The translations under genes were made by a program, and so were the position numbers. Under the pieces are notes generated by a model, which was not told the origin of the DNA, did no database searches, and worked only from the letters and a program-made list of their open reading frames with translations. A DNA stretch of 64,000 bases from Agarophyton chilense (taxonomy: Eukaryota; Rhodophyta; Florideophyceae; Gracilariales; Gracilariaceae): contig JARGXX010000098.1 of assembly GCA_030374765.1 (NCBI GenBank), positions 1,116,001 through 1,180,000 of the forward strand, read 5' to 3'. Positions 2,641 through 63,750 of the stretch are shown piece by piece. Numbering within the stretch: the first letter of the stretch is position 1; the number at the start of each line of letters is the position of its first letter.

Positions 2641-5451
2641 ATGTTAGAGCGCCCATGTAAGTTATGTAATGAATGCAATAATACAGAAAAAGGCACAAAA
2701 ACTATAAAAGATGATACGCAGAAAACTAAAGTTAAAATATGTACCTTAACATCTTTAAAAATGAGTAATGAGTTGAAGAGATCACCTATGTTGGTGTTTA
2801 AAGGGAAAATTGATATTCAAGTACTACACGCATGCAATGTCCTAGTGGATAGTGGTTGTGAGGAGATAATTATCTCAAAAGAGTTTGCAGAAAAGTTGAA
2901 TCTGCAAATAAGTAAACCAAAGTTACAAGCAGAATAGTGGGATGGAACTCTTGTCCCCATGGACATAAGTTCAAACGAACTATCTCTGAAAATTGGTGAG
3001 CTAAGTTTCGACATAAGACCATATGTAGTGGATCTGATTTCTTTTGACGTCATCCTAGGTAAGTCACGGCTATCAGAAATAAATCCACTTATTTATTGGC
3101 AGTCGAATCGAATGCAAGTCAAAGTAAGAGATAAGTTTGTTACTCTGAACGCAGGGCCTGGTAGGTACGGTTTTACATCCCGGCCAAGTTTTTTAATTAC
3201 CAGTAAGCAGTTTTTGAGACTTGTAAGAAAACATAAGAGAATGGTATACCATATTATTGTTAAGTCAAATATGGATGAAGTCGATCCCAAGTTAAATTCG
3301 GGTATCAAAGAAGAAGAGGATATCCAATTACGAAAATTATTATGTGAATATCAAATTGTTTTCCCGAAAGAGTTGCCTAAGAAACTACCCCCGGATAGAG
3401 AGGTAGAGATGAGAATTAATCTCAAAGAAGGAGAAAATCCTAAGATGGGACCAATCTATAATTTATCTAAGATAGAACTGATTGAAATGAAGAAGCAGCT
3501 AAATGAACTCTTAACGCATGGCTTTATTAGACCAAGTATAAATCCTTGGGGAAGCCCAGTTCTATTTACAAAGAAAAAAGATGGAGGTTTAAGAATGTGT
3601 GTCGATTATCGAGCACTAAATAAACAGACCATTAAGAATCAAGTACCTCTCCCAAGAATTGATGAAGCATGGGATCAAGTAGGAGGTGCGAAATACTTCT
3701 CTGTTATTGATTTAAGATCCGGCTATAATCAAATAAAAGTCAGAGAAGGCGATATAGAAAAAACCGCCTTGCGAACAAGATATGGGCAGTTTGAATATTT
3801 GTTTGCGCCTTTTGGACTCACAGGAGCCCCGGGATGTTTCCAAACCTATATGAATATGTTATTCAGAGAATATTTAGATGATTTCATACTCGTTTATCTT
3901 GATGATATACTGATATATAGTAAGACGAGAGATAAACATCTAAAACAACTAAAAAGAGTATTCCAAATACTCAAAAAGAATGAACTTTATGGAAAGGTGT
4001 CCAAATGTGACTTCATGAAAGACTCCATTGAATACCTTGGACACATTATAACATCAAACGGAATTAAAGTTAATCCAAAGAAAACTGAAGCTATTAGGAA
4101 TTGGGAAATACCTTCGAATGTTACGGAAGTACAAAGCTTCCTTGGCTTGTGTAACTATTACAGAAGATTTGTGAAAGACTTCTCGCGAATAGCAGCACCA
4201 CTTTCTGGCCTGACAAAGAAAGCTATTCCCTTTCAATGGTCATTGCCTCAACAAGAAGCTTTCAACAATCTTAAAGAAGCATTAAGTAATACACCCGTTC
4301 TAAGATGCGCAGACCCGACAAAGCCATACGAATTAACTACTGATGCATCAGAAATCGGAATATGTGCAGTTCTTACTCAAACTGATGAGAAAGGAACCAG
4401 ACCAGTAGCTTATGCCTCAAGAAAGTTATCAAGTGCGGAACAAGGCTATTCCACACATGAACGAGAATTATTAGCTATTGTATACGATCTAGAAACTTGG
4501 AGGTCTTATTTGCATGGATCGGAGTTTACTATCTATACTGATCATCATCCACTAAAATACCTTGAATCGCAAAAAGTGCTTTCAAGAAAACAAGCAAGAT
4601 GGGTGGAATTCATGCAAGAATTCGATTATGAAATAAAATATATAAAGGGGAAAAATAATCAGGTTGCAGATGCTTTATCACGAAAACATAAAGGTCTAGA
4701 AAAAGTTTCCTCTGAGATAATCAGAAAACTTCTAAGCGTTACAACTATAAAAATTAAAGAAGGTATTCTGAACGAATTAAAAGAGAAATATAAGGAAGAT
4801 AAATTCTTCAAAGACATTATAGAAAATATCAAAGATCCATTTCATTGGCATAATAAAAGATTGTATTTCGAGAATAGATTGTGTATCCCTGAAGAAGATA
4901 TGAAACAACAACTATTAGATGACAACCATAAGTCATTACTTGGAGCTCACAGAGGAATCCAACGAACAATATCATTAATGAAAAGAGATTTCTTTTGGCC
5001 AGGTATAAATAAGGATATAAAAGAATTTGTTAGATGTTGTCCAGAATGCCAAGCAGCCAAAAGTACAAATCAAAAAATGATGGGACTTCTACGGCCGTTT
5101 CCTCCACCAACTAAGAAATGGGAAGTCATATCGATGGATTTCATATTTGATCTACCAAAAACAAAGGATGGAATACGTTCAATCCTTGTTGTCGTTGACA
5201 AACTATCAAAGAGAACTCATTTCATAGCAATGAAGAACAATGTTAATGCAAGAGATACTGCAGAGATTTTCTACAAAGAAATCTACGAAAATCATGGCCT
5301 ACCGCGTAAGATCATACCCGACGGAGATTCGAGATTCACTGGGAAGTTCCGGAAGGAATTGATGCAGATCTTGCGGGTGAAACTCAATCTGGCTACCGCA
5401 TCTCACCCACAAACCGATGGACAATCTGAACGAGCATTTAGAACCTACTGA
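2641..5451 (+). pseudogene. pol: gypsy pol: protease, RT, RNase H, integrase
   Basis: One frame carries all domains. Protease: VLVDSGCEEIIIS near 2840. A TAG at 2935-2937 interrupts the frame; the rest runs from about 2959 to 5451. Reverse transcriptase has the VYLDDILIYSK active-site motif (about 3890-3920). RNase H follows with TTDASEIG and YTDHHPL. Integrase has an HHCC finger (His/His/CPEC, about 4926-5055), catalytic Asp in SMDFI (about 5134), Asp in the PDGDSRF region (about 5320) and Glu in QTDGQSERAF (about 5428). The frame then stops early at 5449-5451, so the normal stretch of integrase between the Glu and the C-terminal domain is missing. This is a decayed copy; the family assignment is firm. 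Confidence 0.9.
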
Positions 5452-7446: not shown

Positions 7447-9081
7447 ATGGAGCACGAAAGACAACCCAGGCTCCCAGAACTACACAAAGCCAATTATGCA
7501 CCATGGTATCTCGCTCTTGAAACATACGCAACAACAATCGACGCCACAGAACATCTTTCCAGCAATCCTTCTCTTCCAACAGATCCAGCAGATCTCAGGC
7601 GACACACACAGAACAAGTCCAAATTACTCTCGGCCATACTGAGCAGCGTACCATCCGACATCCTCGGACTCTTACTAGTTCCGAAAGACCGACCCACCCC
7701 AGACGACCTCGTCACCGACATTATATCTCACATCGACCAAGCTACGAAAGACGACCACAAGTTCTTGAAAACCGAAGCCGAAAGTATCACTTACACTCAG
7801 GACACCACCATTGAAAATTACATCAAAGCGCACACCGACCTTCGACAGAGAATGATAGTGGCACGCTATCCCAACATCAAACAAGAAGAGACAACTGTCG
7901 ACTTCATTATCAACGGACTCAAAACGAACACAGCCCTCACTCCTATCATTGCGCCCATCTTGTTACAAAAACCAACCACGATCAAAGCTTTTCTCATCAG
8001 CTTCAAACAACTTCATTCATTGTATCAACCCTCGCACGCCCCCACTTCCCAATGTTCAGCACCCAAAACGTTCCCCGGGGACTACGGGCCCCAAAGAAGC
8101 ACCGGGGACTACTACGCCAGGAGCAGAAACCAATTCCGCCGCCCGTATCGCACATATCGCAGAACGGAATACACTCCAAGACACCTACCCCCAGGGTACT
8201 CACCGTGCAAATTCCATACCAGCCTCGGAATCCCATCGATGCACACTGACGAAGAGTGTCAAGATCGCAGGCATCCCAAATATCAGCCAAAAACACAAGC
8301 CCAGATGGCACACACCCAAACGCCACCACCGCCACATACCTATGGCCCGCCCCCAGCCTATCAGCAGCAGTATGGGGCAGCCTCCGCATCAATGCCGTAC
8401 AATGCCTCACACAGGGAAGAGACGGAATCCGGAAATGGAACCCAAAGTACGTTCATCCTCGATAGCGGCGCGACACCCTCCCATATCGCACGACCAACTT
8501 CCGCAATGACGAAACTCAAACACCCTACACTGACCACCACTGCGACCAACTCCCAGACAATGTGCACGCATCATGGGACGATCCAGATTATCCCCAACAA
8601 GACTGAAAAAGTCATTCAACCCAGGGCAGTGGCCAACAAACACATACAACAAAACCTACTATCAGTCCATGATCTCACAAAAAATTATGGCCTAGTAGCC
8701 TTCACACCACACATGGGATACATCATAGACACCCATCACCGCCCGCCCCAAATACTAGCACAAGCTCCGTGGATTAACTCGCAATACCAAGTTAAGGGCA
8801 CACTCGTAGATCAAAACCAGGCGCACACAGCCCAAACATTACCACGTAAATCACGCACAACAAGCAAAACCAAACACCCCCCATCTACCGTAGCCCAGAA
8901 AAGACCAACCACAACCAAAGCGAGCAAGCCAGCATCTTCATTGCAACAAGCAGCCCCCCCACCAACCCTGCTGCACAACCCAAAACAACCACACACTCGC
9001 TTCACCTCCTATCCAACCCCAGAAAGCATAAACAGCAGTCAAACGATCACTTGCTGGCTCACGACTGGCACATACGCATGA
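7447..9081 (+). CDS. copia copy 1 Gag-protease polyprotein part
   Basis: 544 aa from ATG 7447 to the stop at 9081. The capsid-like N-terminal half begins RQPRLPELHKANYAPWYLAL and is shared with copy 2. A Cys/His cluster (CKFHTSLGIPSMHTDEEC) lies about residue 256-275, followed by a Pro/Gln/Tyr-rich linker and the protease active site LDSGATPSHIA about residue 338. The frame is open upstream to the primer site at 7225 without an ATG, and copy 2 has extra homologous N-terminal residues, so the original Gag probably began further upstream and its start codon is lost here. The frame ends 31 bases into the pol frame; in copy 2 the equivalent junction is read through in one frame, so the stop is a lesion. 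Confidence 0.8.
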   Translation: MEHERQPRLPELHKANYAPWYLALETYATTIDATEHLSSNPSLPTDPADLRRHTQNKSKLLSAILSSVPSDILGLLLVPKDRPTPDDLVTDIISHIDQATKDDHKFLKTEAESITYTQDTTIENYIKAHTDLRQRMIVARYPNIKQEETTVDFIINGLKTNTALTPIIAPILLQKPTTIKAFLISFKQLHSLYQPSHAPTSQCSAPKTFPGDYGPQRSTGDYYARSRNQFRRPYRTYRRTEYTPRHLPPGYSPCKFHTSLGIPSMHTDEECQDRRHPKYQPKTQAQMAHTQTPPPPHTYGPPPAYQQQYGAASASMPYNASHREETESGNGTQSTFILDSGATPSHIARPTSAMTKLKHPTLTTTATNSQTMCTHHGTIQIIPNKTEKVIQPRAVANKHIQQNLLSVHDLTKNYGLVAFTPHMGYIIDTHHRPPQILAQAPWINSQYQVKGTLVDQNQAHTAQTLPRKSRTTSKTKHPPSTVAQKRPTTTKASKPASSLQQAAPPPTLLHNPKQPHTRFTSYPTPESINSSQTITCWLTTGTYA

Positions 9082-10949
9082 ATCACGCTCACCCATGGAA
9101 ACTAGCACTAACGGCCAAACAAAGACTACTCCCCACAATGCCGAAACCCTTCCCCACAGACATCAAACTCTCCTGCAGTGCATGTCATCACGCCCAACTA
9201 GCCCCCGCACCACACAAACCAACAAGCCACACATATCAGGTGGGAGCATACGTCAGCTCAGACACTTGTGGACCAATCAAACCAGTGTCCAAGCATGGAC
9301 ACAACCACATACTCCTGATCACCTGTGCGCGAAGTCGCTTTACAGTTGCCCATTTCGTCAAAGACCGCAAGGACATTCCCACCTACATCAGCCAAACACT
9401 CGAACACATACGCCATAAAATGAAACACCCGCTGACATACTTCCGTGCGGACAACGCCAAAGAGTATACATCATCAACTATGCAACAAATATACCAACAG
9501 CACAAGGTGCAACTTCACCTCCGCACCCCGCATCAACCGCAAGAAAACTCAATCGCTGAAAGGCTAAACAGAACAATTATGAACTCGGTACGAGCGCTCT
9601 TACAAACCGCCAAACTCCCCGATGAATACTGGGAAGATGCCGCCCGCGACACGGTGTACAAGTATAATCTCCTCCATCATGTCGCAATTAACACATCACC
9701 ATTCAACCTATGGTACGGGGTCCCACCACCACCACAAACACTATTCATCTTTGGGGAGCTCGGCACAATACCAATATATGCCCCCGAGAGCAAACAAAAT
9801 CCAAGAGCAGATCCGGTCCGGTACATATACCCAATATCGCACAAACACATCGTGGTACTCAATCTCAAGACACACCAATACCAGAGCATACGAACCAAGG
9901 TCTTTCATCCATACCACAAATACAAGGACCCCACAGCCACCACCACATCAGCGTTCAAGGCCAGGACCCTACCGCGACCACACATCCCCACGGAAATCCG
10001 AATCAATACACCCCCCCCAGCCAACCTGACACAAGCCCGACAATATCCGGACGCAGCGCAATGGCAAGAAGCACATGATCGTGAATTGAACAACTTAGAC
10101 CAACACAACAGCATCAAATGGATCCCAAATACATTCACACCACCCAAAGAAGCTATCATCCCCCTCATGATGTTGTATCGTTACAAACGTTCAGCAGAGG
10201 GGCACATCGTCCAACGGAAAGCCAGATGCAACCTCCGAGGCGATCTCATGAAACCTGGCCTCCACTTCGATCCAAAGCATATCACCACTTACACCGCCGA
10301 CCGCACCACCCAGCGGATGTTAATCGCCTTACACGCACGCCACAACATGCCATTAGAGCACTTCGACATCACATCAGCATACTTGCATGAAAAATACCAA
10401 CACACCCGTCCAGTCGACGTCAGGCAGATGCAACGTTTCAGCGGTAGCTACGCCCACAACAGCAAATATGGGCAACTCTTGGGCAATTTATACGGATCCC
10501 CGCCGGCGGCATTCTATTACAATCACGGATTAAAGTCGTTTCTCATCCACTTGAACTTCACACCCTCCGAACACGACCCATGCTTTTACGCCCGCCACAA
10601 TTCAGACGGAGTCACATTAGTCAGTACCACCATTGACGACTTTTTAGTACCAGCCTCAACCCAGGATCTCATCAACACACTCTACAAAGAACTCCTCACG
10701 AAATACAATCAAAAGACTAGGGAGACCCACTCGCTTCTTAAACTGGACCATCACATACGGCGACGATGGTTCGGTGCACATAGCACAACCGGATGCCATC
10801 GAGGCCCTCTTTGCGCAGACAAAAATGAGCTCCTGCAACCCAGCTGCAACACCGTACAACAATCAAAAAGCGTTAGATCAGCTTCCGGAAACAGAAACAC
10901 TACCAGAAGAACAAGCCGTCAGATACCGCCAGATCTTGGGAGAAATTAG
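9051..10949 (+). pseudogene. copia copy 1 integrase and reverse transcriptase
   Basis: This lies in the -1 frame relative to the gag-protease ORF. GAG-preintegrase/HHCC: WHIRMNHA then CSACHHAQ (about 9064-9190). Integrase core: Asp in SSDTCGPI (about 9252), Asp in YFRADNAKEY (about 9440-9468), Glu in QENSIAERLNRTI (about 9540-9575). The RT region has NSIKWIPNTF, LYRYKRSAEG, the FDITSAYL motif (about 10361-10385), a diverged NLYGSPPAAFYY and the catalytic IDD box TTIDDFLVPA (about 10627-10655). After about 10730 the frame no longer matches the family; the continuing RT sequence is found in another frame from 10774. Confidence 0.8.
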
Positions 10950-11759: not shown

Positions 11760-12926
11760 ACCCACAAACCATAAGATTTTTGAAAAACTTCGAGCTATCT
11801 CGCGGTTTCAAACGGGATCCAAATCTACACAGTGCACCATGATGAGATGTCGGAGGTCTGTCCTGTCACCGGCCTCTGTACCTCCGTCTCCTGCGCCTTG
11901 TCTCCGAATCTCAATATCGGCCACCACCGCCGCCATGGCCTCCTCCTTCTCCTTCACCGCGCCCGCCTTCATCGCGGCTACCCCGCTCTGCGTCCCCGCC
12001 GCCGCTGCGCCGTCTCCCTCTCTCTCGCGGCGCCGCCCTCCGCCGCGCATGGTGGCCTACCCATACACGGGCAGCGGCTACGGCGCCGCCGGGATTCCCT
12101 ACGCCAACGACCGCGTGGGCCAGTCCTTCCGCCAAACCGCGACGGACGACATAATGACCACCGTCGCCGCGCTCCCGCCCTTCTCCACGCTAGCTGCGCT
12201 GCTCCGCGAAACGGGCCTGGACTACGACCTTCGCAAAGCCGGCCCATACACGCTGCTGGCCCCGTTCGACGACGCCTTCGCCGCGCTGCTGCAGCCGCAC
12301 ACCTTCGCCACCTTGGCGCCGCTGCTACGCCCGGAAAATCGCGGCGACCTGCGCGCCGTGCTGGCCCACCACGTGCTGTGTGGCCGTGTCTCGTCCGTCG
12401 CGCTCATGCGCGCCGGTCGTCTGTCGTTGCCCACCTTGGGTGGCTCTCACGTCACCCTCATGGCTTACAACAAGAAGCTTTCCGCGGGCCCCGCGCGCAT
12501 CGTCAAGACGGACGTGCCGTGCGCTAATGGCGTCATGCATGTCATCGGATCGCTGTTGCTTCCGGACGGCTTTGTGCCGCCGTCCCTGCCGCGCAAGCCC
12601 GCCTTTGTCAGCTCTACAGTTTTGGACGTGTACGCTAACATGCTCACCCCGCGCCAGGCGCTTGGCATTGACCCGCTGCCGGAGCAGTCCGTCGCCTCCT
12701 CCTCTTCCGCACTCGCATCGTAGGAGGTCGCTGCCAGCCCATAAAAAAGCATCCCCCCTCTCTGTCTAACTATCTCCACAAGCCTGCACTCACCGACCAC
12801 GCTTCAAGGAGCGCGTTATAACCGCAACTGCCACTGTGCGTGCGCCGTCGCAACCTCCCGCCGCGCTTGTCTTAAGAATAAGCGCAACAGCACCATGCAT
12901 CACCCACGCGCGCGGGGCAGCGTAAA
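11760..12926 (+). repeat. Left arm of fasciclin inverted duplication
   Basis: This segment matches the reverse complement of about 16979-18147 almost base for base, including the 5' flank, coding region and about 200 bp of 3' flank. In the coding part I count two differences in 789 bases. The outer border abuts the copia target duplication; the inner border is at gcagcgtaaa, after which the two sides differ completely. Confidence 0.9.
11935..12723 (+). CDS. Fasciclin (FAS1) domain protein, copy 1
   Basis: 262 aa from ATG 11935, chosen because it sits in gccgccATGg; an in-frame ATG at 11839 would add 32 residues. The N-terminus is Ala/Ser/Pro-rich with few acidic residues, like an organelle or secretory leader, followed by a short AYPYTGSGYG stretch. 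The FAS1 domain covers about residues 75-210: IMTTVAALPPFSTLAALLRE, TLLAPFDDAFAAL, the YH-type motif LAHHVLCGRV, and ANGVMHVIGSLLLP. FAS1 proteins mediate adhesion or extracellular/periplasmic interactions and also occur in chloroplasts; the role here is not known. A copia element separates the gene from its distal promoter region. The second copy (17182-17970) differs by one residue in the leader (Phe versus Ser) and a silent change. Confidence 0.8.
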   Translation: MASSFSFTAPAFIAATPLCVPAAAAPSPSLSRRRPPPRMVAYPYTGSGYGAAGIPYANDRVGQSFRQTATDDIMTTVAALPPFSTLAALLRETGLDYDLRKAGPYTLLAPFDDAFAALLQPHTFATLAPLLRPENRGDLRAVLAHHVLCGRVSSVALMRAGRLSLPTLGGSHVTLMAYNKKLSAGPARIVKTDVPCANGVMHVIGSLLLPDGFVPPSLPRKPAFVSSTVLDVYANMLTPRQALGIDPLPEQSVASSSSALAS

Positions 12927-16978: not shown

Positions 16979-18147
16979 TTTACGCTGCTCCGCGCGCGTG
17001 AGTGATGCATGGTGCTGTTACGCTTATTCTTAAGACAAGCGCGGCGGGAGGTTGCGACGGCGCACGCACAGTGGCAGTTGCGGTTATAACGCGCTCCTTG
17101 AAGCGTGGTCGGTGAGTGCAGGCTTGTGGAGATAGTTAGACAGAGAGGGGGGATGCTTTTTTATGGGCTGGCAGCGACCTCCTACGATGCGAGTGCGGAA
17201 GAGGAGGAGGCGACGGACTGCTCCGGCAGCGGGTCAATGCCAAGCGCCTGGCGCGGGGTGAGCATGTTAGCGTACACGTCCAAAACTGTAGAGCTGACAA
17301 AGGCGGGCTTGCGCGGCAGGGACGGCGGCACAAAGCCGTCCGGAAGCAACAGCGATCCGATGACATGCATGACGCCATTAGCGCACGGCACGTCCGTCTT
17401 GACGATGCGCGCGGGGCCCGCGGAAAGCTTCTTGTTGTAAGCCATGAGGGTGACGTGAGAGCCACCCAAGGTGGGCAACGACAGACGACCGGCGCGCATG
17501 AGCGCGACGGACGAGACACGGCCACACAGCACGTGGTGGGCCAGCACGGCGCGCAGGTCGCCGCGATTTTCCGGGCGTAGCAGCGGCGCCAAGGTGGCGA
17601 AGGTGTGCGGCTGCAGCAGCGCGGCGAAGGCGTCGTCGAACGGGGCCAGCAGCGTGTATGGGCCGGCTTTGCGAAGGTCGTAGTCCAGGCCCGTTTCGCG
17701 GAGCAGCGCAGCTAGCGTGGAGAAGGGCGGGAGCGCGGCGACGGTGGTCATTATGTCGTCCGTCGCGGTTTGGCGGAAGGACTGGCCCACGCGGTCGTTG
17801 GCGTAGGGAATCCCGGCGGCGCCGTAGCCGCTGCCTGTGTATGGGTAGGCCACCATGCGCGGCGGAGGGCGGCGCCGCGAGAGAGAGGGAGACGGCGCAG
17901 CGGCGGCGGGGACGCAGAGCGGGGTAGCCGCGATGAAGGCGGGCGCGGTGAAGGAGGAGGAGGAGGCCATGGCGGCGGTGGTGGCCGATATTGAGATTCG
18001 GAGACAAGGCGCAGGAGACGGAGGTACAGAGGTCGGTGACAGGACAGACCTCCGACATCTCATCATGGTGCACTGTGTAGATTTGGATCCCGTTTGAAAC
18101 CGCGAGATAGCTCGAAGTTTTTCAAAAAACTTACGGCTGTTTGTGGG
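16979..18147 (-). repeat. Right arm of fasciclin inverted duplication
   Basis: Reverse complement of about 11760-12926, nearly identical. It ends where the old copia LTR begins (about 18144). The arms are separated by a 4.05-kb spacer with no symmetry of its own apart from the fold-back element. Confidence 0.9.
17182..17970 (-). CDS. Fasciclin (FAS1) domain protein, copy 2
   Basis: 262 aa, starting at the ATG whose first base is 17970 in the same good context as copy 1. The domain layout is identical to copy 1 (FAS1 motifs, LAHHVLCGRV, ANGVMHVIGS). I see one residue difference (Ser in place of Phe near residue 5) and one silent change. The gene points towards copy 1, so the two are convergent. 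Its upstream side is occupied by the 3' LTR of copia copy 2, so both copies share an LTR within about 200 bp of the start codon. Whether the LTRs alter expression cannot be told from sequence. Both reading frames are intact. Confidence 0.8.
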   Translation of the reverse strand: MASSSSFTAPAFIAATPLCVPAAAAPSPSLSRRRPPPRMVAYPYTGSGYGAAGIPYANDRVGQSFRQTATDDIMTTVAALPPFSTLAALLRETGLDYDLRKAGPYTLLAPFDDAFAALLQPHTFATLAPLLRPENRGDLRAVLAHHVLCGRVSSVALMRAGRLSLPTLGGSHVTLMAYNKKLSAGPARIVKTDVPCANGVMHVIGSLLLPDGFVPPSLPRKPAFVSSTVLDVYANMLTPRQALGIDPLPEQSVASSSSALAS

Positions 18148-44962: not shown

Positions 44963-46260
44963 AAGTGCGTTTCAAAAACATATCCCTTTACAAAAACTGC
45001 GCCAAAAAGGCATTTCACGTACTGGAGAGCACATTTCACAACAAATAAAAACCACTAAGTCAATAACACTGTTTCAAAAGTATATCCTTTATACAATCAT
45101 TCGCTCAATTATGGCTCGTTGCGCACCTCTGACACGCTCTGAACAGCTAGAAATCATGGAATTAGTAGGTCAGGGTATGATTCCAGCAGATATAGCCCGA
45201 AAACTCAAGCGCAGCCCAAAAACAATCAGCAACTTCATCAAAAACCCCGCTACATACGGAACAAAGCGTTCAACCGGCCGTTCTACGGCACTATCCCCGG
45301 CCGATAAGCGTGGAAGTAAGCGAGAAATATGCCGCAACACTTCATCTTGCGGGAAAATTGTCAGAAATCTAAATTTGTCTCTATCAAGATCTACAATATG
45401 GCGTGAAGTCAACCGTCAAAATTTGTTCAAGTACACAAAAATGAGGAAATATTTTTTTTAAAAGATAATCACAAGAAAAATCGAGTTGAATGGTGTGCTC
45501 AAAAGGCTTATTGGAAAACGGAATGGAATAATGTTATCTTTCCAGACGAAAAAAAGTTTAACCTTGATGGTCCAGATTGCTATAAATTTTATTGGCACGA
45601 TCTACGAAAAGAAAAGAAGGAATTTGTGACTAGGCATTCAGGAGGCGCATCAGTAATGGTTTGAGCTGGAATCTCTACAAAAGGAGCAAATGATATGGCT
45701 TTTGTTGAAACTATAATGAACTCTGAGAAGTATGCTGAGGTTCTAGAAAACTATCTTTTACCTTTTGCATACTGTATACACGGAGAAGAATTCATTTTTC
45801 AGCAAGATAATGCACCTGTGCATAAGTCAATTCTATGAAACAGTGGTTTAATAGTCTAAATATGTCGGTTATGGAATGGCCTGCGCGCTCTCCTGACCTC
45901 AAACCTATCGAAAACATTTGGGGAATGTTGGCCCGAATGGTTTATGGCCAAGGAAGGCAATTTGATACAGTTTTTGATCTGAAGAATTGTATCAAAGATT
46001 GCTGGGAAAAGATTGACTGTACTGCTATCAATCCTTTTATAAAATCAATTCCAAAGCGTTGTATAAGTGTTATACAGGCTAGAGGAGCAAAAATAAACTA
46101 CTGAACTCGCGTTAGAATAAAAAGGATGCAATAAAGGTTATGATTTTGAAACAGTTTTTTTACTTGAAAATTTTTTCACACTGATTTTGTTAGTTTTACT
46201 GTAGCCAAAACGTCGATTTTTGGAAAATTTGCGCGAGGGATATGATTTTGAAACAGACTT
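44963..46260 (+). mobile_element. Tc1-like transposon B
   Basis: 1298 bp between TA dinucleotides (44961-44962 and 46261-46262). Terminal inverted repeats begin AAGTGCGTTTCAAAA on the left and AAGTCTGTTTCAAAA on the right, each followed by CATATCCC. It is a close copy of element C (57119-58417) in the opposite orientation. Confidence 0.85.
45111..46104 (+). pseudogene. Tc1-like transposase, element B
   Basis: Starts MARCAPLTRSEQLEIMELVG at ATG 45111 with a paired-like helix-turn-helix (IPADIARKLKRSPKTISNFI). At 45452-45463 a run of eight T then four A ends the frame with TAA; the catalytic domain continues in the -1 frame (DNHKKNRVEWCAQKA, VIFPDEKKFNLDGPD). A TGA replaces the Trp of SVMVWAG near 45661. 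A further one-base deletion near 45830 again shifts the frame; the last part (SPDLKPIENIWGMLARMVYG) holds the catalytic Glu. The first two lesions are shared with element C, the third is not. Confidence 0.85.
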
Positions 46261-46262
46261 TA

Positions 46263-46839
46263 GTGTTATTGACAGTGTAGATAAGTAGAAAAGGTTTCTT
46301 AATGGCGTCTAAAGTGTTTCATTTGTTCTTTTTAAGCGTTACTAGAGAGAAGGTTGAGAGGAACATGAGAGAAATGGAGTGCATCATCAAAAAGGGGGGT
46401 GGCTTTAATTGGATTTCGCGCAGTGTACAGCTTGTAGATCTTATTTATTGCGGAAGAGCAAAGAAAAAAAAAAGGCTCGTATGAGGCCATTGGACCTATA
46501 GACACTAGATGTTGAAAAACGTCTGTATCTGTTTTCGTTTTCGAAGGAGAGCTATTCTACGATCCGAGGTATATAAATCTCGCTGACTCTACGTAACTGT
46601 GTCTAGCCTCTCTGGCAGCAACAAGACGAGCAGCTTGACTTGCAGGAAATGTGTTTAGACGCGTTAGTTATCAGTTCTCCCACAGTGCGATAATCAAAGA
46701 TTTACTGTACGCTTGCACGCTTGCACGCTTGCACTGGCACGCTCTGTTTCCACAGCGCCTTTGGCGCGCAGGAGCTCTAAGCGCGCTCCGCACCGCACGA
46801 AGCGCAAGTGACGTGGAGCGAAAAGTGCGCGCGTCTTCA
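46263..46839. other. Upstream region of LSM7 with a GGCCTC-type repeat end
   Basis: Near 46474-46510, gctcgtatgaggcc followed by cctatagacactag resembles the right end of the fold-back element and the tandem repeat at 16.7 kb. Three 8-bp units (gcttgcac) lie near 46710-46735. The last 150 bp, GC-rich, should hold the LSM7 promoter; there is no clear TATA box. Confidence 0.4.
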
Positions 46840-47305
46840 ATGGTACGTCACTCCTCTTTCCTATCCCCTCCCCCGCCGCACTCTCCCTCCTCGCACGCTA
46901 ACCGCAGCCCCCTCCCGCGCGCAGAGTCATCGCCAACGCGCCGCCGAGCGCGCCGACAAGGGCGACAAGAGCGACAAGAGCGGCGACAAGGGCGACAGGG
47001 CGCGCAAGAGCCCGCAGCACCGGCTGCTGCACGACCTCAGCAAACACGCGGGCGATCGCGTGCAGGTACAGCTCACTGGCGGCCGGCTGGTGCGCGGCGT
47101 GCTCAAGGGCTGGGACCCATTGCTCAACCTGGTTCTGGACGACGCCGTGGAGCAGCTGCGCGACCCGCTTGACGCCTCCGCGCTCGTCGCGCGCCACCGT
47201 CGTCTGGGGCTGCTTATTGCCCGCGGCACCTCCGTCATCACCATCGCCCCGCTGCACGGGCTCGAGTCCATTCACAACCCGTTTCTTGCGCAGCCCACCG
47301 TGTGA
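46840..47305 (+). CDS. LSM7: LSM7, Sm-like protein
   Basis: LSM7 is a subunit of the LSM1-7 ring (cytoplasmic mRNA decapping) and LSM2-8 ring (U6 snRNA). The Sm frame (46925-47305) shows Sm1 DRVQVQLTGGRLVRGVLKGW, then DPLLNLVLDDAVEQLRD, typical of LSM7, and Sm2 LGLLIARGTSVITIAP, ending ESIHNPFLAQPTV. It has no in-frame ATG of its own. The ATG at 46840-46842 is followed directly by the donor GTACGT, and an 82-base intron ends at CAG 46922-46924, joining ATG in phase to the Sm frame. This gives 127 aa (typically about 100) with a basic, Lys/Asp-repeat N-terminal extension. The first coding exon would thus be the start codon alone. The PMI-like gene begins 134 bp downstream. Confidence 0.85.
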
Positions 47306-47438
47306 CACCTCTGTCTCCCCGCCGATCGCCTTTCTTTTTCTTTTGTTCGCCGCCCTTGTGCCATTCGCTTTCGTAAACCTCCCTCGCTCTCGCTCGCTCC
47401 CTCTGCCTTTCCCCCTTATTGCCGCTGCGGCTCCCACC

Positions 47439-48982
47439 ATGCAACAAACGCATCAACCGGATCCCGACGCCCCCGCCACCCCGCCCAACCCCCTGCGATC
47501 CGCAGTCGTGCCGCTGCTCGGCGCCGTCACGCACCACAAATGGGGAAAGCACCCCCCGTCCTCCCTCCCCGCCATGCTGCACACCAACAACGCCCTCGCC
47601 CCCATCCACACGCACAAACCCTACAGCGAGTTCATCTTAAGCTCGCAACCGCCGCTACACGCCCTCATCGCCTCCACCCCAACCCTCTCACTTCACCACT
47701 TCATCCAGTCACAAGCCATCCACGTCCCGCCCGCCGCCGTCCACTTTTACCGTCATCTGCACGCCCACGGCATCCCTTACACCCTCAAAGTCGCCTCCGT
47801 CGCCACTCCTAGTCCGTTGCGCCTGCACCCGGACGCCCGCACCGCACAGTCGCTCACATCCCAGCTCCGCTTTCGCAACCCTGCCGAGCGCCCGGCCATG
47901 CTGGTCGCCCTCGGTCCGTTACACCTTCTCTTCGCTTTTCGCCCAGCCGCGCGCATCGCCGCCGAGCTCCGTCGCTCCCCCGAGCTCGTCACCGCAGTTG
48001 GCGCCTCAACGGCAGATAACTTTATGCGTCGCGCCGACGCCGGCGCTGCATCGCCACAGCTCATCAAGCAGCTCGTGTCCGCGCTGCTTACGGACCCCGT
48101 CCGCACGGCAGACTGCGTGGCGAGCGCTGCCACTCGTTTGGCTCACGCCCCACCCGAAGTCATGTCCGAGTGTGACACGTGCTTTGTGGCGTTGCAGCGC
48201 GAGTTTCCGCACGACGCTATGTGTTTCGCCGCCTATTTGCTCAACCTCCTGGAGCTGGCCGACGGAAATGCCGTGTTTGTCCACGAGAATGAGCCATATT
48301 GCGTGCTTTCCGGCGACTTTGTGGAGGCGGCCACCGAGAGTGATGCTACGGTTGTTGGTGGTCTGACCCATGAGGAGGACGTTGGCAGCCCAAATATTTT
48401 TGCGCATTGTCTTAGCTACGATGACTCACCCGTCGAGGTACGTTCAAACGACAAAACAGCAGCAACAACATCAAAAGTGCGTTTTTGCTCTCTGACCAAA
48501 AGCCCCGTTTTGCCTATCTGACGCTTTGTACATGTAACATAGATTTCCCATGGAGAACGAGTTAGCGAATGTACCGTGTCCTACGTGCCTCCGGTTTCCC
48601 ACTTTCAACTTCTCCGTTTCACACTGCCGGGAGGAATATCGCAAAAAATGGTCCAAACAATGTAAGTTCGCATAGCGAAAACAGCTCACGCAGTTGCTCA
48701 ATACCTCGACGCAAACGCAAAGACTCTAAAACATCAATCACTAATGTTCTTGTGTATAGTGCCCCGTCCGTTATTCTCGTTCTCGACGGCACAGGATACA
48801 TTGCCGTCGACTCAGAAAGCACTCTCATGCCCTTGAGAGCTGGATCCCTTTACTACCTAAGTCCGCAAACGTCGCTCCTCGTTTCCTCTACAAAGCACTC
48901 TCTCACGCCGCTTCACTTCTTTCAAATTGGCGTCAACGAATCTGCTGCACCCTCTTCGTCGTCTTCATGTTCCATAATGTAG
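47439..48982 (+). CDS. Phosphomannose isomerase-like protein lacking the zinc site
   Basis: Three exons: 47439-48437, 48543-48661 and 48760-48982 (introns of 105 and 98 bases with GTACGT and GTAAGT donors), 446 aa. The fold of type I mannose-6-phosphate isomerase is clear: HKWGKHPPSS at the N-terminus, THKPYSEFILSSQPP, LKVASVATPSPLRLHPDA, FAFRP, LNLLELADGNAVFVHENEPY, VLSGDFVEAATESD and, in exon 2, VSYVPPVSHFQLLRF; exon 3 has ILVLDGTGYI and LRAGSLYYLSP. Compared with PMI, the zinc ligands Gln, Glu and His are Arg128, Ala153 and Tyr287; only His130 is kept, and the conserved active-site Arg before (A/G)GLT is Val306. It is probably not an isomerase. The frame, splice sites and fold motifs are intact, so it looks maintained and not decayed. 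Confidence 0.75.
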
Positions 48983-49275
48983 ATTCCTTGCGGGATTACT
49001 AATCTATTTCCCTTCTTCAAACATGTTAAAGACGTCACCAATCATTTGTGGCACAGTGCCCGTAGAGTACGTGTGTTGCGGTCTTTTTGCAAAAAGATAA
49101 TATGTTTTACTTGCTGCTACAAGTGGCCATCGCGTTGTCACGATCAGCATTACCTTATCATTGTTGCAACTAATAATATGACAAAATTACCCACAAGTCT
49201 CATATATACCTCAAGCATTGTTAGCGTCCAAAAGTAGTTGAGAAAAATAGTGAACCACCGGTGAAAGAATGCGTT
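48983..49275. other. Intergenic between convergent genes
   Basis: 3' ends of the PMI-like gene (+) and the methyltransferase-like gene (-). AT-rich, no gene seen. Confidence 0.6.
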
Positions 49276-50394
49276 TCACAGTGCACCGGCTCTGATGTTG
49301 TTCAAATCGTATAGAAAGAGTTGCTTTCGAACAGAGGGATCCCCGCTCATATCGTTCACAACTCGAAGCGGCTCATCGAAACGGTATGGTGCTCTCCGAA
49401 CATTTACACGACCGCTTTTGCTAGCTGATCCCGGGTTATGCTTCACGTCGGGAAAGTTGGGCACGATGACGTACTTTGTTTTCGATTTTCTCAACGACTT
49501 GATCAGCTTCCACGCCCGCTGTGGCGATAAATACCCGAATCCATACCATACAAAAGCCAAGTCAGCCTTTGGAAGCTTCGATGCCCATGCGACAGGGTCC
49601 TTTACCACTGTGGCTGAGCTGTACTCTTTGTACTGAAGAATCCCATTGATAAGATATTCATCATCAGGCACCACGCAACGATAATGAAACCTCGGCACTT
49701 CAAACTCGAGGATCTTCAACAATTCGGGCATCCATATGGTACTCGATGTGCATGGAACGTCGATCACGCTGGATATTTTGTGGGTCTTGATCAATCTATG
49801 TACCATAAACGAGAGATGAGTAATGTTGTCGGCTTTGAAAAGGTGACCGTTTTCGGAGTTTTGTTCAACACCCTGAAATGTTGAATGTGGTCTATGCATT
49901 GCTGGGGAAACCCGGCCTTGTTCATGGAAGGACTTCCTGTTCTTCATTGCTAGCAACCTCTCTCGCTTTCGTATCGAGTCTTCAATGACTTTCTCCCGCG
50001 CTTTCTTTTCAAACTCTTCGACGCTGTACGCAGCACCGCGAATTTGTATGCCCTTTCCATTTCTGGGACGGCCGTTTGTCCCCGGCACTTGAGACTTCGT
50101 TTCCATTCTGACTTGCTTGATCCCGTTCTTCGTGACTCTAGATTCCGGGCGAATCGTCATTCGTACCGACGACTCAGAAATCTTTTCTACATCTCCTCGA
50201 ACCCAGTCGAGGTGGTGGTTGCCAGCACGTGGCGCCAAAGGAACAAGCCCACCTCCTGAGTCAATGACCTCTGTCATGAATGCCTCCGAAAGAAAAAGAC
50301 ATGCCGTCAGAAGGCAAGCAATCGTGTACAAGGCAGACTTGGTGCCAAACCACAGGCACTTTATGTGCGTGTACCTTGCAGTCTTTCTGCCCAC
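49276..50394 (-). CDS. Membrane-anchored methyltransferase-like protein
   Basis: 372 aa from the first in-frame ATG (50394); the open frame extends 15 codons further but only to a TTG. Residues about 20-39 (SALYTIACLLTACLFLSEAF) form one membrane segment behind a basic N-terminus, a type II signal anchor as in Golgi/ER enzymes. A charged, probably disordered linker follows (residues 60-180). The C-terminal 180 residues look like a class I SAM-dependent methyltransferase: SVIDVPCTSSTIWMP in place of the glycine-rich motif I, LPKADLAFVWYGFGYLSPQ, KYVIVPNFPDVKHN, and a C-terminal RRAPYRFDEPLRVV with KQLFLYDLNNI. The glycines usual in motif I are missing (PCTSS). The substrate is unknown. Intronless, and downstream of NDUFA2 on the same strand. 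Confidence 0.55.
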   Translation of the reverse strand: MGRKTARYTHIKCLWFGTKSALYTIACLLTACLFLSEAFMTEVIDSGGGLVPLAPRAGNHHLDWVRGDVEKISESSVRMTIRPESRVTKNGIKQVRMETKSQVPGTNGRPRNGKGIQIRGAAYSVEEFEKKAREKVIEDSIRKRERLLAMKNRKSFHEQGRVSPAMHRPHSTFQGVEQNSENGHLFKADNITHLSFMVHRLIKTHKISSVIDVPCTSSTIWMPELLKILEFEVPRFHYRCVVPDDEYLINGILQYKEYSSATVVKDPVAWASKLPKADLAFVWYGFGYLSPQRAWKLIKSLRKSKTKYVIVPNFPDVKHNPGSASKSGRVNVRRAPYRFDEPLRVVNDMSGDPSVRKQLFLYDLNNIRAGAL

Positions 50395-53352: not shown

Positions 53353-55389
53353 CTAGAACGATGCTTTGCGGTCTACAAAGTTAGTGGCCGACTGTACCAA
53401 CGTCCGGAAGTATCCGTTCTTCATTGCTACCAATTCTTCATAGTTCCCCTGTTCTAGAATTCGTCCGTCACCAACAACCAGAATCTTATTAGCCGCCCGA
53501 ACTGTGCTTAGGCGATGAGCTATCAGCAAGACGGAACGGTTCCTCATGATTCTTTCAAGGGCTGTTTGAACAAGTCGTTCGCTCTCTTGATCCAAGGCTG
53601 ATGTGGCTTCGTCAAGAATTAGTATGCAAGGAGACTTAACGAGGCTACGTGCTATAGCAATCCGTTGTCTCTGGCCTCCTGACATGTTTGAGCCGGGACT
53701 CCATATGGTGTCATAACCATGAGGTAACTTTGAAATGAACTCGTGTGCGTTGGCTTCCTTCGCTGCTCGAATTACTTCGCTGTCATCCACCACATCGTTG
53801 GGGCGGCCATAGGCGATGTTGTCGCGAATAGTACCTTGAAATAGAACAGGGTCCTGTTCGACAACCGCAATTTGTTTGGCATAGACCTCTGGAGGAATAT
53901 TTTGGATGTCGAGGCCATCCAAGGATATTTGACCCAAAGTTGAAGCATACATACGGCTAAGGAGCGCGGCAATGGTTGATTTTCCACCACCCGAAGCCCC
54001 TACAAGCGCCACCATATCTCCTGGTTTCATTGTGAAACTAATTCCCTTGAGGACGGATACATTCTGTCTGCTGGGGTAGTGGAAATACACACTCCTAAAC
54101 TCTACATTTCCCATGAATTTCTCGGGAGAGCTATGTGCCGTGAGTGTGCCTCGTTGCAATGAATTCCCATGATACGAGGTCGCATTGTCAAGCACAGAGT
54201 AAATAGAGCGCAGTGAGTTCGAAAGTTTTGAGGAGTCTGAAAGAGTAAAGGACAGACCAGCTACACAAAAGTTGAGGTTCCAGATATATCCAGTGAGGCA
54301 AGCAAAGAGCGCGTATGTCATACGTCCTGAACATATCATCAACCCGCCAAGGGTTAAATAGGCCATCATGGTGGTGTAAATCGTGAGCCGGCTTGTCGAC
54401 TCAGACAGCGCACGACTAAACGACGACTTCTTCGAAATTTGTTCAACGTCACTCAGGACACCACGAAATGCTTTTGATTCCTTTCTCTCTGCCCCATATG
54501 CTTTCAGCGTTCTTAGCCCTCCAATGCGCTCGCTAACAAAACCGCGCACCCTGGACTCTTGTCGGTTGACATTGAAGGCTAACCTTCCATTACGCATGCC
54601 AACACGAGCCGAAGTCACGGATAGAATTGGCACCATCATGGCGAACACTGGTAGACCTGCGATACCTGTAATAGATAGACATATAAGCAACCCAAACACG
54701 ACCTCGATTACAGCACGAATACCGCGGTCTTTGCTGAGGTTGGCCCATATAGTGTCTCGTACGGTCTGGATTTCAACAGTGATATTCTGTTCGATGCGAT
54801 CTCGACCCTCTCTATCAAAGTATCCAACATCGTTTCCGAAGGTCTTCTCAAACAGGCGCTCCCTCAAGCGTCGTGTGGCTCTATCCACAGCCCGAGTAGC
54901 CATAGAGACAAACCCGAGTGTCAGTGTAGCTTCGGTGAAGAAGAAAATGAAGAGACGCACGACATGCCCAATTAGCTCTGCACGTGCAAGCGCAGGGTTA
55001 ATGCTTCCAGCACGCGCCAGAAATGAAACTGTTCGTCCGTACATGATGGGAACGAATAGAGCACACATGCTTCCAAGAATGGCAGCAGCTATTGCTGGAA
55101 CAAGGAAGCGCCATTCGACCAGCAGACTTCTCAGAAATCTTAACGTTGGGCTGGCTAGCCTGGCTACGTTCTCAATAGGTCTTGCTTCTGTCCCAGGCCG
55201 TACCGCGGATTCATGGAATTGTTTGGATATTCCTGCAGACAAAGAATTGGTTGCCACAGGCCTCTTAGAGCGAATGCAACTAAGTCTCGGTCTAAGACGG
55301 TTTACAGTCCTAGCGCTTCCATGAAGAAAGGTCGTTTGTCGGGTGACGACCGGGGTACTGCTCACAAATGCAAAATTCCGAACCAGCAT
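53353..55389 (-). CDS. ABCB-type half transporter
   Basis: 678 aa, one exon, from ATG 55389. One transmembrane domain (about residues 90-400, first segment FLVPAIAAAILGSMCALFVP) and one nucleotide-binding domain: Walker A GASGGGKST (464-472), Q-loop VVEQDPVLF, signature MSGGQRQRIAIARS (569 on), Walker B ILILDEATSALD with Asp593-Glu594, and H-loop His625 (AHRLST). All catalytic residues are present, so it should hydrolyse ATP as a dimer. The layout is that of half-size exporters of the TAP/ABCB8-ABCB10/MDL type. The first 75 residues are rich in Arg/Ser/Thr with almost no acids, like a mitochondrial or plastid presequence. The substrate cannot be told. Its start is 1.7 kb from the nearest feature upstream. 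Confidence 0.88.
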   Translation of the reverse strand: MLVRNFAFVSSTPVVTRQTTFLHGSARTVNRLRPRLSCIRSKRPVATNSLSAGISKQFHESAVRPGTEARPIENVARLASPTLRFLRSLLVEWRFLVPAIAAAILGSMCALFVPIMYGRTVSFLARAGSINPALARAELIGHVVRLFIFFFTEATLTLGFVSMATRAVDRATRRLRERLFEKTFGNDVGYFDREGRDRIEQNITVEIQTVRDTIWANLSKDRGIRAVIEVVFGLLICLSITGIAGLPVFAMMVPILSVTSARVGMRNGRLAFNVNRQESRVRGFVSERIGGLRTLKAYGAERKESKAFRGVLSDVEQISKKSSFSRALSESTSRLTIYTTMMAYLTLGGLMICSGRMTYALFACLTGYIWNLNFCVAGLSFTLSDSSKLSNSLRSIYSVLDNATSYHGNSLQRGTLTAHSSPEKFMGNVEFRSVYFHYPSRQNVSVLKGISFTMKPGDMVALVGASGGGKSTIAALLSRMYASTLGQISLDGLDIQNIPPEVYAKQIAVVEQDPVLFQGTIRDNIAYGRPNDVVDDSEVIRAAKEANAHEFISKLPHGYDTIWSPGSNMSGGQRQRIAIARSLVKSPCILILDEATSALDQESERLVQTALERIMRNRSVLLIAHRLSTVRAANKILVVGDGRILEQGNYEELVAMKNGYFRTLVQSATNFVDRKASF

Positions 55390-62526: not shown

Positions 62527-63750
62527 GTGATAGCCTTCAACACGCTGCGCGTTCCCACGGAGAGAGCCGCCCCCGCCGCGGCGCTGCTCGCTGCCGCGGC
62601 GGCGGCTGTGTCCGCGTACTTCGTCTTCACGCGTGTCAGGCGCGCCGAGAAGGCGAGCGCGCACAAGCGTTCGCCTTCCACCGAGGAGCGTTGTGAAGCG
62701 TCGTCGCGCCCCGACGGCGTCACTGCCGATGCACCATCCGGCCGTGCTTCTTGTACACTTGCTTGCGTCTGCGACGCCGATGATGCTCGACGACTCGCTC
62801 TGCCTCCACCGCACGTCAAGCGCGCCGCCGCGTGCTCGCGCTGCTTGCCGTGGATGGTGTTCTGGGACCTGGAGAACACCCGCGTGCCCTCGTCCATGCC
62901 CCCCGCCGCGCTCGTGCAAGCGCTTTGCAGCGCGCTGCGCGCCATAAGTCCACATCCATGCGCCGCCCATCCCCAACCGGTCCTCCGCATTCTAGCTGTG
63001 GCCAACATTCACGCAATCCCGCTCGAGCAACGCAAGGCGCTGCAGTCGAATGGAGTCTCAATACTTCATTTTGAGACCGGCGGCCGCAAAGATGCTTGTG
63101 ACAAGGCGCTCATCACTGAGCTGTGCCTGCTTACTCTCGAACATCCTCCCCCCATGGGCGTCGCACTGCTGTCAAGCGACGTCGACTTTGCCTACGCTCT
63201 CTCTCGTCTTACTGCCATAGGCTATTTCACGGCCGTTGTTACACCCAGCATGCAGACTCTTTCCCGCCAGCTAGCGTCTGTGCCGAAAACCATACTCACC
63301 TTTGATCACATCTTCGCACATGTCTCCCCACTTCTCATGCCTCAAACCAAGCAGATTCCTAACATCAAGGCTGGGGCCCCACAGCAAGCTGATCAAAAGC
63401 AACACGCTTCACGGAGCACAAGAAGACGCCAACAGAAACACAAAACGCCGAAACGCCCACTGCCCGCGCCTGACGCTAACTCTTCACTTGACAATTCTAA
63501 CACTGACCCTCGGCACCGATTATTGCCTCAAGCTCATCTAAGTGTTTCGAACGACACTACTGTCTCGCCTGTAATTCGCTCAAACACGTTCAACGTTGCT
63601 CAAATTCCACATTCCAGTTCTCTCACCAAAAAACTAGTAGGTGGTACTTGTTTCCGGTATACCGTTTGTGTCGCAACGCTATTTTCAATCATGTGTATTA
63701 TAGGTACCTTGCTTTTTTTCAATCGTTATCCCTGTAATTGGCCATGGTGA
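62527..63750 (+). CDS. NYN-domain (MARF1-like) ribonuclease-like protein
   Basis: The open frame of 407 codons has its first in-frame ATG only at 62854, giving 298 aa; the 62527 start is a GTG. The ATG form begins MVFWDLENTRVPSSMPPAAL, the first strand of a NYN (PIN-like) domain with its catalytic Asp. Next come RILAVANIHAIP, GRKDACDKALITELCLL and VALLSSDVDFAYALSRLTAI with further acidic residues, then GYFTAVVT: the MARF1/limkain-b1 type. A Lys/Arg-rich segment (SRSTRRRQQKHKTPKRP) and a C-terminal membrane helix (CVATLFSIMCIIGTLLFF) follow, which would tether the domain to a membrane. The sequence before 62854 (AAALLAAAAAAVSAYFVF) could be a second membrane segment if the true start lies upstream in an exon I cannot see. 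Confidence 0.75.
   Translation: MIAFNTLRVPTERAAPAAALLAAAAAAVSAYFVFTRVRRAEKASAHKRSPSTEERCEASSRPDGVTADAPSGRASCTLACVCDADDARRLALPPPHVKRAAACSRCLPWMVFWDLENTRVPSSMPPAALVQALCSALRAISPHPCAAHPQPVLRILAVANIHAIPLEQRKALQSNGVSILHFETGGRKDACDKALITELCLLTLEHPPPMGVALLSSDVDFAYALSRLTAIGYFTAVVTPSMQTLSRQLASVPKTILTFDHIFAHVSPLLMPQTKQIPNIKAGAPQQADQKQHASRSTRRRQQKHKTPKRPLPAPDANSSLDNSNTDPRHRLLPQAHLSVSNDTTVSPVIRSNTFNVAQIPHSSSLTKKLVGGTCFRYTVCVATLFSIMCIIGTLLFFNRYPCNWPW

Follow-up and report, generated by a model that had tools for sequence, protein, structure and literature searches.

A paralogue of type I phosphomannose isomerase in the red alga Agarophyton chilense is a predicted pseudoenzyme with an unexpected prenylation signal

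Phosphomannose isomerase (PMI, EC 5.3.1.8) stands at the passage from glycolysis to the sugars derived from mannose, a step that is also part of the pathway to L-galactose in red algae that produce agar. For the red alga Gracilariopsis, PMI has been listed as a step of the agar pathway (PMC5970526), and the correlations described between its activity and agar content are mixed (PMC5970526, PMC9319447). The zinc ligands of the Candida enzyme are given as Gln111, His113, Glu138, and His285 (PMC3765361, PMC10069634). For Salmonella ManA, crystal structures of the H99A, E134A, H255A, K132A, and R274A mutants have been described, whose numbering suggests equivalent sites; by title, no paper on the kinetics of these mutants was present among the matches listed. 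Here we describe a PMI-like gene located at positions 47439..48982 (+ strand) of a 64,000-nt stretch of Agarophyton chilense DNA (contig JARGXX010000098.1, positions 1,116,001 to 1,180,000; hereafter the window), the product of which appears to be a pseudoenzyme paralogue of PMI carrying an unexpected prenylation signal.

Alignment of the PMI-like protein with Candida PMI (1PMI; E 4.1e-23, 24.1% identity) provided the reference for residue numbering. Along with the zinc ligands, the comparison included Arg304, named as an active-site residue by an earlier note made on this DNA from its letters, and Trp18, Glu48, Lys100, Ser109, Lys136, Tyr287, Glu294, Asp300, and Lys310, which we take to be further active-site residues of the Candida enzyme; the places of all these residues were set by the alignment. 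The codons for P126-L127-R128-L129-H130 (47814..47828, +) correspond to Candida S109-I110-Q111-A112-H113, with R128 in place of the zinc ligand Gln111 and H130 retaining the ligand His113. The R151-P152-A153 codons (47889..47897, +) correspond to K136-P137-E138, with a zinc ligand changed from Glu to Ala, and those for Y287-C288-V289 (48297..48305, +) to H285-A286-Y287, with another ligand changed from His to Tyr. Further downstream, the stretch V306 to E312 (VGGLTHE; 48354..48374, +) is equivalent to R304 to K310; the GLT motif is retained there and both basic residues are gone, V306 standing opposite Arg304 and E312 opposite Lys310. The protein therefore keeps one of the four zinc ligands. 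The earlier note had placed R128, A153, Y287, and V306 opposite Gln111, Glu138, His285, and Arg304, and each of these assignments proved exact on the alignment; the changes S109 to P126, K136 to R151, Y287 to V289, and K310 to E312 are additional losses that it did not contain. Residues retained are W35, E64, K117, H130, E296, and D302 (equivalent to Trp18, Glu48, Lys100, His113, Glu294, and Asp300, respectively). Because the equivalents of R304 and K310 are lost together with the metal site, the binding of sugar phosphates in the usual mode looks weakened in this protein, as judged from the alignment, even if K117 and an Arg (R151) at the K136 position are still present.

The replaced positions are invariant in a set of 76 type I PMIs, 75 from prokaryote contigs and one from a viral contig, which was retrieved through conserved-stretch patterns and is thus biased to canonical members. 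Residues Q111, H113, E138, S109, and K136 were present in 76/76 of these proteins, H285 and Y287 in all 72 ungapped rows (4 gapped), and R304 and K310 in all 71 (5 gapped).

By its catalytic domain, the predicted protein belongs to the type I PMI sequence family, since it matches PF20511 (PMI_typeI_cat) with 31.2 bits, above the gathering cut-off of 22. On the other hand, its zinc ligands, its Arg and Lys positions, and its score against TIGR00218 (manA; 64.2 bits vs an equivalog cut-off of 116.2) place the predicted product outside the PMI enzyme class. A structure model, built on an alignment of 57 of the 76 relatives, predicts the PMI fold. Together, the replaced residues, a TIGR00218 score below the cut-off, and the retained fold give good support to the proposal of the earlier note that this is a pseudoenzyme, and we consider that the protein is very probably catalytically dead. 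A weak residual PMI activity with an altered metal site would be in line with what the protein retains, namely a single zinc ligand, an active-site Lys, and three acidic residues (E64, E296, and D302). Nevertheless, Ala, Tyr, and Arg in the place of three ligands would leave no plausible metal site, and the active-site Arg is missing as well, together with a Lys, which makes such an activity very unlikely.

The PMI-like gene consists of three exons with a spliced coding sequence of 446 amino acids and GT-AG boundaries in both introns, in agreement with the intact exon structure previously described for it. Exon 1 (47439..48437, +; 333 codons) contains the catalytic cupin, where the PF20511 match lies, and the helical region; exon 2 (48543..48661, +) encodes the beginning of the C-terminal region, and exon 3 (48760..48982, +) its remainder, a Ser-rich tail, and the stop codon TAG. 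Intron 1 (48438..48542, +) and intron 2 (48662..48759, +) are 105 and 98 nt long, respectively, and retention of the former leads to an in-frame TGA and a 360-amino acid product. The gene looks coding because of its codon-position GC pattern (0.64/0.48/0.68 at first, second, and third positions, with 0.43 and 0.42 in the introns and 0.39 in the 298 nt downstream) and its stop-free exon 1 (0 stops vs a mean of 7.0 in 2000 base shuffles, 0.1% of which were stop-free); the other two forward frames of the exon 1 stretch contain 2 and 8 stops. We conclude that the predicted gene is an intact three-exon gene. A canonical site masked by misassembly or by alternative splicing, a caveat raised in the earlier note, is hardly credible: nothing was found in its favour, the eight changed residues all lie inside exon 1, in a single uninterrupted open frame, and a search for exact canonical motifs in the six frames of window positions 46001-49400 found none.

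Analysis of the whole genome (79.76 Mb, 135 contigs) revealed a second, canonical PMI gene on contig C2 (C2:138547-139950, - strand), encoding 467 amino acids in one open frame. Its product retains all 14 named active-site residues, including Q114, H116, E141, H277, R296, and K302, passes all three Pfam domains, and reaches 196.5 bits against TIGR00218 (cut-off 116.2). It is a normal-looking type I PMI, putatively active, and its presence bears out, at the level of sequence, the suggestion that the window gene might be the paralogue of an active PMI located elsewhere. In these searches, PF20511 detected the window gene and the C2 copy, and PF01238 the C2 copy alone, and a search with the window protein recovered itself and the C2 copy; no third copy was found in six-frame genome searches, which an intron-split copy could escape. 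Regarding subsequent steps of the pathway, PMM is present on contig C95, and an NTP_transferase protein on contig C6, the best of four matches, may be GMPP.

The window and C2 proteins are approximately 30-35% identical (124/414 pairs in one alignment and 142/412, or 34.5%, in another), and the values of dN (0.82), dS (1.38), and pS (0.63) between both genes are so close to saturation that they say nothing usable about selection. In a tree of 35 of the 76 fetched relatives together with the window copy, the C2 copy, and Candida PMI, the best topology joined the two algal copies (98/82). Warnings attached to this tree concern the long window branch and the odd letter composition of both algal copies. 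Since a topology holding the C2 copy with Candida was not rejected (p-AU 0.20), a lineage-specific duplication is likely rather than proven. A pattern search of the genome contigs gave 29 matches, none of which was a relative of the PMI-like protein. As a separate observation, a stretch of a phage record from human stool (MT835584.1:25872-26492, -) shares 30.6% identity with exon 1 over residues 112-310, and possibly represents a phage or contaminant PMI.

The C-terminus of the PMI-like protein (NESAAPSSSSSCSIM) ends, after the Ser-rich tail, in a CaaX box, C443-S-I-M446 (CSIM; 48968..48979, +), a feature absent from the earlier note. The probability of a CaaX-like tail arising by chance from the protein's own composition is approximately 0.0017; the last residues of the C2 copy are SDAASLD. 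Human prelamin A has CSIM as its CaaX box, and in a yeast system this box was described as fully modified by human farnesyltransferase and modified to about half by human GGTase-I (PMC11152559); it is also reported as cleavable by Rce1p (PMC9231725). The Agarophyton genome encodes a farnesyltransferase beta subunit on contig C113 (its best match is 1jcq_B, with E 5.7e-98, the beta subunits of GGTase-I and Rab GGTase scoring much lower), the only one identified as such among two loci with PF00432 matches (C113 and C68). The alpha subunit is encoded on contig C117 (best match farnesyltransferase/GGTase-I alpha, E 1.1e-33), and a distinct gene on C116 encodes the Rab prenyltransferase alpha. The presence of a C-terminal CaaX box in a genome with farnesyltransferase leads us to favour slightly, from these sequences, a prenyl anchoring of the PMI-like protein.

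Altogether, we estimate a probability of about 0.66 that the gene encodes a pseudoenzyme retained to do non-catalytic work, irrespective of the partner involved. In support of retention, the PMI-like fold was under constraint after the window and C2 copies separated: of 84 core columns, 78 are hydrophobic, in comparison with a mean of 51.7 and a maximum of 64 in 300 runs of a neutral simulation, a result that speaks for past constraint only and is silent on the recent past. Several other observations weigh against the proposal of a retained, prenylated pseudoenzyme. The PF01238 score (13.6 bits) is below the cut-off of 21, the helical domain PF20512 gave no match up to E 1, and the canonical PMI alignment used for the structure model may raise the apparent confidence for whatever relative is modelled. 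The general drift of the protein is wide, because 16 of 29 other positions at least 97% constant are lost in addition to 8 of the 14 named active-site residues; the expected concentration of losses at the active site was therefore rejected. Relaxed selection is likewise compatible with the very long window branch (3.17 changes per column, vs 0.99 for the C2 branch), and no orthologue was found in the viral contigs or other genome contigs searched. As for the tail, the CaaX box comes from a single sequence and was spotted post hoc. Eukaryotes in general have prenylation genes, and their presence here allows the CaaX reading without proving it. Furthermore, an ICMT-family protein on contig C2 (94.9 bits) and three Rce1-like matches are no proof of CaaX-processing enzymes, because the corresponding families also match prokaryote controls (PF04140 in 5/14 and PF02517 in 11/14).

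The length of the branch, the 24 near-constant positions lost out of 43, some of them beyond the active site, and the missing orthologue would also suit a decaying, functionless gene copy, recent enough to remain open, and a gene that was long functional may have escaped constraint only recently. We regard this explanation as improbable given that, in spite of a long divergence from the C2 copy, the frame and both introns are intact, the core hydrophobicity is above the maximum of the neutral runs, and the codon-position bias exceeds that of the surroundings. A constrained core would also be required by an enzyme with a new, metal-independent activity, in which the cupin pocket would have been rebuilt on H130, Y287, K117, R128, E296, and D302 for acid-base chemistry on another sugar. 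The retention of H130, K117, E296, and D302 and the introduction of Tyr and Arg in the pocket are compatible with this idea, and metal-independent sugar epimerases are described in the cupin superfamily (PMC3765361). Still, such a new enzyme is quite unlikely, as the viral and genome contigs searched yielded no relative sharing these new residues, and the loss of 8 of the 14 named residues is the usual mark of a dead enzyme.

According to the explanation that we propose, the alga would have retained a paralogue of its type I PMI that is devoid of catalysis; this protein would bind no catalytic zinc and would not isomerise mannose 6-phosphate. The protein might be farnesylated at C443, held on a membrane face, and act there without catalysis as a regulator or scaffold. 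Its simplest job would be to control or place active enzymes of the mannose pathway (the PMI or those that follow it) and in this way to regulate the supply of mannose 6-phosphate and GDP-mannose, although a regulatory partner within the mannose pathway is for the moment a tentative suggestion, on the doubtful side. The most complete version, in which a farnesyl-anchored pseudo-PMI would serve as a red algal regulator or scaffold bringing mannose-6-phosphate supply to the membrane and feeding the use of GDP-mannose and GDP-L-galactose in glycosylation and wall polymers, so that a dead enzyme would act as a switch where the mannose pathway begins, is unlikely as a whole, and we infer the link to wall polymers from the position of PMI in the pathway.

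The PMI-like gene starts 133 nt downstream of an LSm7-like gene, judged by eye (window 46840-47305, +), whose exon 1 would be scarcely longer than its ATG, with a GTACGT donor directly after it. Elsewhere in the window, an inverted repeat (11769-12926 and 16979-18136) has arms of 1158 nt, 99% identical and 4052 nt apart, each carrying a 294-amino acid fasciclin-domain open reading frame (ORF). Two retroelement ORFs contain reverse transcriptase, RNase H, and integrase domains (2959-5451) and RVT_2 (of the copia type) and integrase domains (9078-10949); the ORF between them (7447-9081) matched no Pfam family. ORFs with ABC transporter domains (53353-55389, -) and with an NYN domain (62854-63750, +) were also observed. 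In the rest of the genome, contig C39 showed ten strong phycobiliprotein matches and was taken as plastid; its phycoerythrin and phycocyanin beta chains are close to, though not identical with, those of red algal structures.

If the proposed explanation is true, a dead paralogue beside an active PMI, with a membrane signal of its own, would be a testable control point for mannose flux. No report of a PMI pseudoenzyme or of a catalytically inactive PMI paralogue was found among open-licence papers, which is weak evidence of absence; papers on cupin pseudoenzymes were found in this literature, by title none on PMI, and the words mannose and isomerase are both absent from a paper on red algal sex chromosomes (PMC12502185). 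As a warning for annotation, counts of red algal PMI genes may include a copy unable to catalyse the step.

In comparison with type I PMIs such as Candida PMI1 and Salmonella ManA, the PMI-like protein has a common predicted fold and length, and differs in the replacement of three zinc ligands and of the equivalents of Ser109, Lys136, Tyr287, Arg304, and Lys310, as well as in its CaaX tail. Metal-free cupins, such as seed storage proteins and sugar epimerases, belong to separate families, and in the sequence searches the PMI-like protein matched PMI entries only. A functional parallel is provided by GMPPA, described as a non-catalytic paralogue regulating GMPPB in the GDP-mannose pathway (PMC11228364). 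For GMPPA, binding of ligand and partner has been reported, whereas the PMI-like protein is known here from its sequence alone. GMPPA acts at another step of the pathway and belongs to a protein family different from PMI. The likeness would lie in the way of working only: an active enzyme of the GDP-mannose pathway is accompanied by a paralogue without catalysis, as described for GMPPA and as proposed for the PMI-like protein.
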